From NCBI GenBank assembly GCA_024220525.1, contig JAMYWO010000112.1, positions 103,093 to 125,971 of the forward strand: a stretch of 22,879 nt of DNA, in the 5' to 3' direction. Within the stretch, counting starts at the first letter, position 1. Each line of letters begins with the position of its first letter. The notes below the pieces were generated by a model, which searched no databases, was not told where the DNA came from, and worked only from the letters and a program-made list of their open reading frames with translations. Source of the stretch: Cochliopodium minus (Eukaryota; Discosea; Himatismenida; Cochliopodiidae). Below, piece by piece: positions 16,025 to 19,337 of this stretch. The position numbers and the translations under genes were made by a program.

Positions 16025-18010
16025 ATGAAGAAATTTTTGAGTTATTCCATTTTCGTTTTGTTATTTTGGATTTTATCTTCAAGATCGAGTTCGATAATAA
16101 ATCCATTGACCAACATTACAATTCTTATAGATACACCAGTATTTATGAACTCCAATATGAGGTATTTATTAGACTGTATTGTGAAGTAATTATTCCAAAT
16201 ATATTTAAAATGAAAAAAATAGAGAATTCACAAAGATAACAGCTCATATATCTGCAGCTACCACAAATTCAAATGATTTATCAAATTGCAATATACTGAA
16301 GGTTAATATGACAGGAAAGATAGGTTCGAGACTTTTTTTTGTGATCAATTTGGATTTCCAATTAAATTTTTTAATTTTATTTGATGTAAAGGAGTGTCTG
16401 CTATTGCGGGAGGGTGTTCGATTGAAGAACATATATTCAATTTGCAACAAGCTGGAGCAATTGGAGCAGTAATGCGTAAATTATTTTTTTTTCTTAATTT
16501 CCTTAAAAATTCCTCAAATTTTTGATTTCATTACAAGTTGGTCCTGGATACTATTGGTTTTTGGCGAGATTGAGAGATCAGAACTTTGATAAAAACAAAA
16601 TCAAAATCCCGGCAGGTACGAATTTTAAATTAAAAATTTCAATTTCATAATTCAAAATTAAAAATTTCTTATTTTTGAATCTAAAAGTGATGATTTGGTC
16701 AAGAGATGCAAGATCGGTAATCTCTATGATCACCCAAGCTACTCTTCAAAAAAAGCCAATACCTCCTGTTACATTGGAATTGACTTCAAATAAATGGTTA
16801 ACAAAAGTAACAACTCCAGGATTCCTTTTATTCAAAGGTTTTTCTTTGGCTTGGACATCTCTATTAATTATAATAACCAGTATATTTTGGATCTTCAGAA
16901 TCAAAATAGAAGGAGGCAAAAGGAATATAATGTTCTTTCTGTAAATTTAATATTTTTTTTTCTTACAAAAAAGAGCCATCTGCTTCTCAAATGGTTTGTT
17001 TATTTGAATGGTTATCTGCATTATTCAGGTTATTATTTCTGATTGATCCTATTGGTATTTTTTATTTGTTTTTGCCTTGTTTTTTTTTTGGAACAGATTG
17101 TTTTTTTAAAATAATTAAAAGGAGAAAGAATGATTTACAGTTTTCAAACTTCAACAGTTTTTTTAACATTGTGGATTCCATTCAAAGCAGCTGGTAATTT
17201 CGAATCAAAATATTTTGTTTCCATTAATAAAACTTTAACTAAAAAACATACTCTTACTTAGGAACCATCTTTCTAACTTTCTTCTTCTTTGAAGTTTTAA
17301 TTTCCAAAAATTCTAATGCAAAACCATATCTAAAAAAGTATTTGTTTTTCCCCCTTTTTTGAAATTCTTTTATTCAAATTATTTTTCTTAAATATTTAAG
17401 ATTCAAATTCCCTTTTTTAATTTATTGTGGAATCGTTTTCATTTTTGAATTAGCAAACATTATATTGAGAACGACATGGCTTGTTAACGATATTATTTTA
17501 ATTGTTACGGTGGCTATTTACAGTTTTCTTTTTTTTGTGAGCACTTCTTTTTTTTTGATTGGAGGTAAAATTCTTTTTTTAACAAAAAATTTTAAACTCT
17601 AAAAATTGTTTCCAAAAAATAATGAAAGGTATAATCATGATTTCAAGGATGAGAAAGTTCGATCCTGTAAGGTCAAGAAGTACAAGAATGGGTAATAAAA
17701 AATTTCGTTCTTTTCAAACTTTTCAATTTTAAAATTTTGAAATTTAGTTATGTTGATTTTTTTGAGTTCAATTGGTCTTCTTATTTTGACAGCGGGACTT
17801 ATTTTGTCTCCAATCAAAGCATCAGAGGCTTCAACTAATGGGTGGTTTACAATTATGATTACAACACAGGTGGGTGCTTCTTTAGCTGCTTATGGTGCCA
17901 TTTTCTCTTTCAAAATGAAAAAAATCAAAAAGTTTAGATTGTCTGCTTCTACTAACAGTTCTCAGAGAACAAAAGAAAATTTTGAAAACAGCATGAAATC
18001 TTTAAACTAA
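16025..18010 (+). CDS. Secreted-start protein with PA-like domain and seven membrane segments (copy 2, complete)
   Basis: Eleven exons: 16025-16161, 16223-16323, 16392-16475, 16538-16615, 16688-16915, 16974-17054, 17122-17193, 17262-17337, 17401-17564, 17629-17691 and 17748-18010; 1347 nt, 448 residues. Residues 1-22 are a signal peptide. About 25-175 is a lumenal domain with a protease-associated-like core (VNMTGK, AIAGGCSIEEH, LQQAGAIGAVM, GPGYYW, IPPVTLELTSNKW). Seven hydrophobic segments follow near 178-203, 215-233, 244-275, 290-310, 315-347, 362-383 and 393-416, then a basic tail. Signal peptidase-like SPPL proteases also join PA to membrane segments, but the YD and GxGD motifs are absent. 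A 7TM receptor is therefore the likeliest type; the ligand is unknown. Intron 5 (16916-16973) must be GC-AG to keep frame. All other introns are GT-AG, about 50-75 nt. Confidence 0.8.
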
Positions 18011-18352
18011 AGACGAGTGTTATTGTTTTTGGTGGTTTTTTTATTATTTATTTTTAATTATTGAAAATTAAATTTATTTGATTTTAAATTCCAAAAAGAG
18101 TCTTCTTATTTTTGATAACTGGTATTTTGAATACTCCTAATTATGATATAGTGTTCAGTTATTGTTTTGACAGTTTGGAGATTCTTTTAAGGCTATGAGA
18201 GGGATTTTCTGTTTAAATTTGAAAATCCCAAATATTCTCAAATTCTTCTTTTGCAGGAGTTCAAACAAGACAATAAATTCTCAATACCAAACATTGAAAA
18301 AAAGTTTTTAAAAATTGAAAATTAAAAAAAATAAAATCAAAATTGAACGAAT
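18011..18352 (+). other. Spacer between PA/7TM copies 2 and 3
   Basis: 342 bases. It holds the AT-rich 3' flank of copy 2, then a decayed last exon of the same gene family (listed separately), and finally about 60 bases of A-rich leader ending in the start context shared with copy 1. Confidence 0.6.
18099..18288 (+). pseudogene. Relic of a PA/7TM last exon
   Basis: This stretch aligns, with small gaps, to the final exons of copies 0 and 2. TCTTCTTATTTTTGATAACTG matches the sixth-membrane-segment sequence TCTTCTTATTTTGACAGCGG of copy 2; GGCTATGAGAGGGATTTTCT and TTTGAAAATCCC match the seventh-segment end and following tail of copy 0; GGAGTTCAAACA matches GTGGTTCAAACA of its tail. No frame is open through it, so it is a dead exon of a lost gene copy. 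Its position directly upstream of copy 3 mirrors copy 0 directly upstream of copy 1, which suggests that a two-gene block was duplicated and this partner decayed. Confidence 0.6.
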
Positions 18353-19337
18353 ATGAAAAAATTAACTATTTTGTTCTTTGTTATTTTCATAATAACAACG
18401 GAATCGAGCTCGATTATTAATCCATTAACCAATTTTACCATCCAAATTGATACACCAGTTTATATGAATACAAATTTCAGAACTTTCAATCCTATCACTG
18501 CTCAAATTGTCGCAGTATCAACTAATTTCCAAGATTTATCAAATTGCAAGAAAATAACAGTGAATATGACAGGTAGAAAGAAATATGTTTAAAATTATGT
18601 TTGAAATAATCAATTTATTATCTCTTTCACTTTATAGGAAAGGTAAAAATCTCTTTTCGGCTTCATCAAATTATTATAATTATAATTATAATTATACAAA
18701 CAGATCGGAGTGAGGTAAGAAAACAATATATTTAAAATAGAAATAGATTCCAACTTATTTGATTGATAAAAAGTGGTATGGCTGGAGGTAAAAAAAAATA
18801 TAAATTTATATTATTTTATTTGTTATAATTTTAATTTATATTTTCCGAAAAGGATGTTCGATTGAAGAACATATCTTTTACTTGCAAGAAGCAGGAGCAG
18901 TAGGAGCTATCATAAGTATAATTTTTTTTTTTTTTCCGTAAAAATCTTACCTTTCTTAATTAGTTGGACCTGGATACTATTGGATCTTGGCAAGATTGAA
19001 AGATCAGAGCTTTGATAAAAATAGAATAAAAATACCATCAGGTGAAAAAAAAATTGACAATTTAATTTACTCATATAATTGATCACTTATCAAAAATGTT
19101 AATTAAATATATTGATCCATTGAAGGATTTGATGAATGAAATTTACGAATTTAATAAAATTATAAAAATTAAATTTAATTTTATTAATGATTTGCTATTT
19201 TATTTTGTTAGTGGTGATTCATTCTAAATCCGCAGTGGATGTTGTAAAAGTGATTCAACAAGCAACCATTTTGAAATACCCAATACCCAACGTAACAATG
19301 TCATTGACACCAAATAAATGGTTGGCAGAAGTGAAAC
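18353..19337 (+). CDS. PA/7TM family copy 3, 5' part, with three micro-exons
   Basis: Exons: 18353-18572, 18638-18642 (5 nt), 18704-18714 (11 nt), 18774-18787 (14 nt), 18853-18915, 18964-19041 and 19212-19337, cut by the N at 19338. The micro-exons read GAAAG, ATCGGAGTGAG and TGGTATGGCTGGAG, each between AG and GT. Together with the flanks they give MTGKIGVSGMAGGCSIEEH, matching MTGKIGVSAIAGGCSIEEH of copy 2, where the same residues come from two ordinary exons. That match and the restored frame are the evidence for these splices. The product starts with a signal peptide (MKKLTILFFVIFIITTES) and continues through the PA-like domain to NKWLAEVK. Membrane segments are missing because of the gap. 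The 3' 70 bases are identical to copy 1. Unlike copy 2, exon 1 is not split after the NTNF region. Confidence 0.82.

Follow-up and report, generated by a model that had tools for sequence, protein, structure and literature searches.

Three consecutive microexons predicted in one of three tandem PA-domain gene copies of Cochliopodium minus

Introduction

Intron definition acts by default on short introns. Runs of consecutive microexons are found in the schistosome micro-exon genes, in which the exons are symmetric and the products are variable secreted proteins.

Spliceosomal microexons are exons of no more than ~15-30 nt that lie between two introns; they have been described in plants and animals, singly or in small clusters. 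In plants, according to the available portion of one study, the 1-nt microexons of APC11 and VPS55 were validated, adjacent microexons of 5 and 12 nt in the rice gene Os08t0562700 were validated by RT-PCR, and 35 of 45 microexon clusters date back to moss (PMC8831610). The Os08t0562700 pair is apparently the Peptidase M1 pair of the same study (PMC8831610, available portion). A 4-nt constitutive exon has been reported in MPC1 (PMC9929638, available portion). In Caenorhabditis elegans, microexons with very short flanking introns, for example that of tcer-1, are independent of PRP-40, which was attributed to intron definition. In addition, one microexon lost its need for PRP-40 once its upstream intron was replaced with one of 58 nt; the corresponding downstream replacement could not be tested (both in the available text of PMC8378409).

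For Creolimax, a unicellular relative of animals, the available text of one study describes a search method that covers exons of 3-15 nt, and nothing further (PMC4739763). A narrow open-access search, judged from titles and the starts of abstracts, found no report of a run of three microexons in a protist, and descriptions of three microexons in a row, with sizes down to 5 nt, seem to be few in the sources covered.

Here we describe a predicted run of three microexons, of 5, 11 and 14 nt, in one of three tandem gene copies of Cochliopodium minus, and compare it with the two neighboring copies and with more distant paralogs in the same genome.

Results

The DNA that we analyzed (the window) is a stretch of 22,879 nt of contig JAMYWO010000112.1 (positions 103,093 to 125,971, forward strand; assembly GCA_024220525.1), with an A+T content of 74.3%, compared with 80.65% for the genome of Anaeramoeba ignava (PMC11550330). 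It contains three tandem copies of one gene, all on the + strand. Copy 2 (16025-18011) is a complete paralog that encodes 448 amino acids in 11 exons (63-264 nt) separated by 10 introns (56-72 nt). One of its introns (16916-16973, 58 nt) starts with GC (GAG|GCAAAA...AAAAG) and is required to keep the frame. Copy 1 (337-1137) is the closest sibling of copy 3 and is truncated at 1138 by an N. Copy 3 starts at 18353 and is known as a 5' part only; its 3' half is missing behind an assembly gap (N, 19338).

The two single-N joins, at 1138 and 19338, are each located just within a truncated copy of the gene. The 77 nt at the end of the contig (22803-22879) repeat 1139-1215, directly after the first N, and this repeat looks like the k-mer overlap of an assembler. 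Because the end repeat follows the first N, the order of the scaffold pieces is doubtful and they are probably misordered. A reverse-strand gene, labeled ankyrin-like by eye, may cross the contig end into the sequence from 1139 onward. The microexon stretch of copy 3 is itself contiguous in the assembly.

Exon 1 of copy 3 (18353-18572, 220 nt) contains the ATG, a hydrophobic N-terminus and the start of the PA region, ends in ...ATGACAG, and is 84% identical to exon 1 of copy 1. It is followed by intron 1 (18573-18637, 65 nt; GTAGAAAG...TTTATAG), a 5-nt segment (18638-18642, GAAAG), intron 2 (18643-18703, 61 nt), an 11-nt segment (18704-18714, ATCGGAGTGAG), intron 3 (18715-18773, 59 nt), a 14-nt segment (18774-18787, TGGTATGGCTGGAG) and intron 4 (18788-18852, 65 nt). 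The later exons are at 18853-18915, 18964-19041 and 19212-19337, the last being cut by the N, and the later introns are at 18916-18963 and 19042-19211.

The initial annotation had proposed that the three short segments are exons and that together they restore a peptide encoded by copy 2 in two normal exons. We found all three segments flanked by AG on the 5' side and GT on the 3' side. When spliced to 18353-18572 and 18853-18915, they give a stop-free frame that reads ...MTGKIGVSGMAGGCSIEEH..., in which their 30 nt encode K-I-G-V-S-G-M-A-G-G. In copy 2, the matching MTGKIGVSAIAGGCSIEEH is indeed encoded by two ordinary exons, one of 101 nt (16223-16323) and one of 84 nt (16392-16475). Phase and GT-AG are kept in all four introns of copy 3, and the spliced coding sequence ahead of the N (517 nt) contains no stop or frameshift.

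We recovered the same structure by spliced protein-to-DNA alignment. The aligner allowed only GT-AG introns of 30-400 nt, with a fixed intron penalty and BLOSUM62. The query was a piece of the copy 2 protein, spliced by eye; the targets were copies 1, 2 and 3, and no coordinates were supplied. On copy 3, this query returned the 5-, 11- and 14-nt exons at exactly the coordinates given above and introns of 65, 61, 59 and 65 nt. That is, 30 coding bases are spread over three exons cut by four introns, as originally claimed.

We measured how often such an arrangement occurs by chance. At the DNA level, we allowed any chain of AG..GT segments totaling 30 nt with introns of at least 40 nt, and compared copy 3 with dinucleotide shuffles. 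A valid chain was present in 2319 of 5000 shuffles, and the best of these had 16 identities to copy 2. The best real chain had 24 of 30. At the protein level, the spliced score of the real sequence exceeded the maximum of 1000 shuffles with an intron penalty of 8 (131 vs 124) and fell below the shuffle maximum with a penalty of 14 (107 vs 118). With penalties of 20 or more, the aligner favored a single 280-nt intron that omits all three microexons. Support at the protein level is thus weaker than that from the DNA test and depends on the penalty. The DNA test is the cleaner of the two because the length and the ends are fixed.

Peptides from five distant paralogs gave partial support. With a penalty of 8, introns 2-4 were found by three of the five (the L042 copies), and introns 3-4 were still found by two at a penalty of 10. 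None found any copy 3 intron at a penalty of 14, and the L041 and L044 queries recovered no copy 3 introns. Intron 1 was missed by all five distant queries, and the left boundary of the 5-nt exon is thus placed by copy 2 only.

The four introns around the microexons have ordinary sizes and strong donors. At 59-65 nt, they fall inside the range of the ten copy 2 introns (56-72 nt). We scored their splice sites against a reference set of 20 introns of the family (47-170 nt), some of which come from near-identical copies. All four donors (9.5, 7.9, 10.7 and 10.3 for introns 1 through 4) lie between 7.9 and 10.7, compared to a reference median of 6.7 and maximum of 10.0. They read AG|GTAGA, AG|GTAAA or AG|GTAAG; that is, the exon before each of the four introns ends in AG. 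At the third of these exon ends, a serine that is TCT in copy 2 is AGT in copy 3, and the AGT supplies the AG. The acceptors of introns 1, 2 and 4 (2.8, 1.7 and 2.0) score below all 20 references (minimum 3.5). The acceptor of intron 3 scores 4.8, and an AG inside that intron (18740) scores 5.5.

The microexons matter for the match to the PA domain (PF02225; Pfam gathering cut-off, 23.9 bits). With them, the copy 3 protein scores 25.1 bits and matches profile positions 2-91. Without them, it scores 19.2 bits and the match begins at profile position 34. The complete copy 2 scores 22.2 bits, also under the cut-off, so the family is a marginal member of PA. Elsewhere in the genome, the PA model was over the cut-off at 17 places, five of which we had already seen as paralogs and none of which is in the window. 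The initial annotation labeled copy 3 as PA/7TM, which implies seven membrane spans following the PA domain. We found no match to a Pfam 7TM family at E up to 1, nor any match of the 172-aa copy 3 protein to solved structures at this threshold. The C-terminal half of copy 2 shows hydrophobic stretches; the corresponding region of copy 3 is absent (gap). Based on the PA score, copy 3 is probably a PA-domain membrane-protein gene. Paralogy, the chance test, intron size and the PA-domain score together support the microexons well, and at the level of the DNA the original observation is confirmed.

The main rival to the microexon model is that all three microexons are skipped, either always or by regulation. 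In that case, 18573-18852 would be one 280-nt intron and the protein would read MTG-CSIEEH, ten residues short. The frame would be kept, since 30 nt are omitted; three of the four acceptors are weak; and this is the structure that the aligner prefers at penalties of at least 20. An intron of 280 nt would be longer than all 20 reference introns and all ten introns of copy 2. However, introns in other paralog models reach 259 nt, so that 280 nt is conceivable, which makes skipping slightly likelier, and the microexon model slightly less so, than the reference set indicates. Against skipping, the ten residues form a conserved element of the PA fold, with 24 of 30 bases kept, and the PA score drops below the cut-off when they are left out. 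We consider skipping unlikely.

It is also possible that copy 3 is a young pseudogene, with fossil exons in a gene whose expression or translation has ended. Copy 1, in the same stretch, probably has a broken frame (see below), and copies 1 and 3 both end at an N. Against this are the 517 nt of open coding sequence and the intact phase and GT-AG of the four introns. In addition, dN/dS (Nei-Gojobori) is 0.20 between copy 3 and copy 1 and 0.25 between copy 3 and copy 2, although pairwise dN/dS is an average over the past from which a recent gene death cannot be dated. These values indicate that purifying selection acted in the past on the coding sequence of copy 3. The microexon codons alone (33 nt) have four nonsynonymous and three synonymous differences relative to copy 2, numbers too small to be tested separately. 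We regard recent gene death as very unlikely.

An assembly artefact, in which misassembly of similar tandem copies produced the four intervening segments or the short exons, would fit the Ns at 1138 and 19338 and the 77-nt repeat that makes the scaffold order doubtful here, but it is hardly credible for a contiguous stretch 486 nt from the nearest N in which every segment runs from GT to AG and is of normal intron size, and of which copy 1 independently has the 14-nt exon and intron 4.

Copy 1 preserves part of the arrangement. It has the same exon 1 end as copy 3, the 14-nt exon (665-678), with a difference at one of 14 bases and both splice dinucleotides present, and intron 4 (679-732). It is missing the 5-nt exon, intron 2 and the 11-nt exon. 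A deletion in this part of copy 1 (557-732) seems to have taken the end of intron 1 through the start of intron 3, fusing introns 1 and 3. Because 16 coding bases are lost, the frame of copy 1 is probably broken, unless other splice sites are used. The aligner also offers an in-frame reading of copy 1 through other splice sites, which is four residues shorter.

We compared intron positions across the PA loci of the genome, taking the A of the ATG in MTG as nt 1. On this scale, introns follow nt 7, 12, 23 and 37 in copy 3 and nt 16 in copy 2. The comparison covered 25 informative loci with alignment scores of at least 41, in which places bearing two locus names were counted once. Sixteen of these were earlier paralog places, and the others were L067, L070, L071, L072, L075, L062, L066, L068 and L076; L061, L064 and L065 were uninformative on both strands and were left out. 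None of the 25 loci has an intron at 7, 12 or 23, and L054 has a doubtful one near 21. Thirteen of the 25 (L044 counted by its later model) carry an intron immediately upstream of the MTG-like triplet. In L045 and the three L048 copies, an intron lies at 38, one base beyond intron 4 of copy 3.

Most simply, the inner introns would have arisen after copy 2 had split off and before copies 1 and 3 separated. Based on these positions we infer that gain of the inner introns in this lineage is likelier than repeated loss elsewhere. Copy 1 lacks the stretch around the site after nt 12 and so is uninformative about that site. The intron of copy 2 (16324, after ATA G) is in the same place and phase as the intron at 16 of a more distant PA gene, L066. 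Because of this match, the copy 2 intron may be old and may have been lost in copies 1 and 3.

We looked for relatedness among the introns. Among 45 pairs compared by global alignment, introns 1 and 3 ranked first (15 of 2000 shuffles were as good); among 91 compared by local alignment, they ranked third (4 of 500 shuffles). Their weak similarity is collinear from donor to acceptor. A pair of introns at the same position in copies 2 and 3 was less alike (33 of 2000 shuffles). The likeness of introns 1 and 3 is not significant when corrected for all pairs, and is borderline for the six pairs within the cluster. One reading is that introns were gained locally in a recent burst, with one intron copied to neighboring sites of the same exon, shattering 30 nt of a conserved fold into microexons in a single lineage of the tandem copies. 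We consider a burst of this kind rather unlikely.

According to the available part of a report on introners, these are transposable elements that create introns; they would account for several gains in a short stretch (PMC9860276 for introners). Introner-derived introns would be expected to have many near-identical copies in the genome. A recent genome-wide introner family was not supported, as 18566-18722, which spans introns 1 and 2, matched only itself, plus a 22-nt antisense self-match, in a search that skipped common words. A search with all four introns found, outside the PA copies, only low-complexity-looking matches. The start of intron 4 with the end of the exon before it (18785-18844) is 83% identical over 60 nt (6.7% G+C) to L058 on another contig (C192:43498-43555, minus strand). 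There, a plausible coding stretch is followed by GAG|GTAAAAAAAAATAT, as at intron 4, and the remainder is nearly pure A/T. Other AT-rich matches in the genome scored like this one, and the likeness possibly reflects only a common donor and low complexity. We also rejected a target-site duplication: GAAAG occurs at 18576-18580 and as microexon 1, and by eye the context matches no further.

Discussion

We consider it probable that copy 3 contains three microexons between four ordinary GT-AG introns, that these introns are recognized by intron definition and removed in order, and that the inner introns were gained in this lineage. From the genomic evidence we infer that the RNA of copy 3 is likely spliced as modeled.

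The spliceosome would recognize each 59-65 nt intron across itself, with the help of strong donors. Because adjacent introns could hardly be bound together over an exon of 5-14 nt, they would have to be removed one at a time. Each removal would fuse a microexon to its neighbor and so lengthen that exon. The introns would come out in some order, and the evidence predicts no particular one. Removal in steps had been raised in the initial annotation and is plausible on grounds of spacing, since splice sites separated by 5-14 nt would hardly be occupied simultaneously. Two other statements made there did not hold or were weakened. The lower limit is not close to 5 nt, given the validated 1-nt and adjacent 5- and 12-nt plant exons and the 4-nt exon of MPC1 (PMC8831610 and PMC9929638, available portions). 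Special recognition is not needed a priori, as the C. elegans microexons with short introns are independent of PRP-40 (PMC8378409, available text). With introns of ~60 nt in copy 3, special recognition is less likely than simple intron definition in which the order of removal is forced.

The closest described systems each share part of this arrangement. Like the plant clusters in the available portion of PMC8831610, copy 3 has very short serial coding exons, not all multiples of three, in a conserved gene. Unlike them, it has three in a row, which lie in a single tandem-paralog lineage of a microbial eukaryote and are predicted from DNA. The flanking introns of the tcer-1 type in C. elegans, ~49-58 nt in the available text, are comparable to those of copy 3; the C. 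elegans cases are single animal microexons, whereas copy 3 has three consecutive ones with four short introns (PMC8378409).

Copy 3 shares the consecutive run with the schistosome micro-exon genes, but none of its microexons (5, 11 and 14 nt) is a multiple of three, unlike the symmetric exons of those genes, and its microexons lie within a conserved fold. In this genome, we noticed no clear microexon among 36 matched blocks of the chaperonin family (PF00118), a comparison that was not a census. The exon size in copy 3 sets no record, and it is the run of three that is rarer. What is unusual is the clustering of the microexons together with its apparent youth, and the structure looks like a rare but known kind that was recently acquired.

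Gene finders and short-read aligners may miss the ten conserved residues that the microexons of copy 3 would encode. The tandem paralogs are a natural before-and-after series: copy 2 is ordinary, copy 3 would be shattered, and copy 1 would have been shattered and then damaged by deletion. With such a series, both the order of intron removal and recent intron gain would be testable in one locus.
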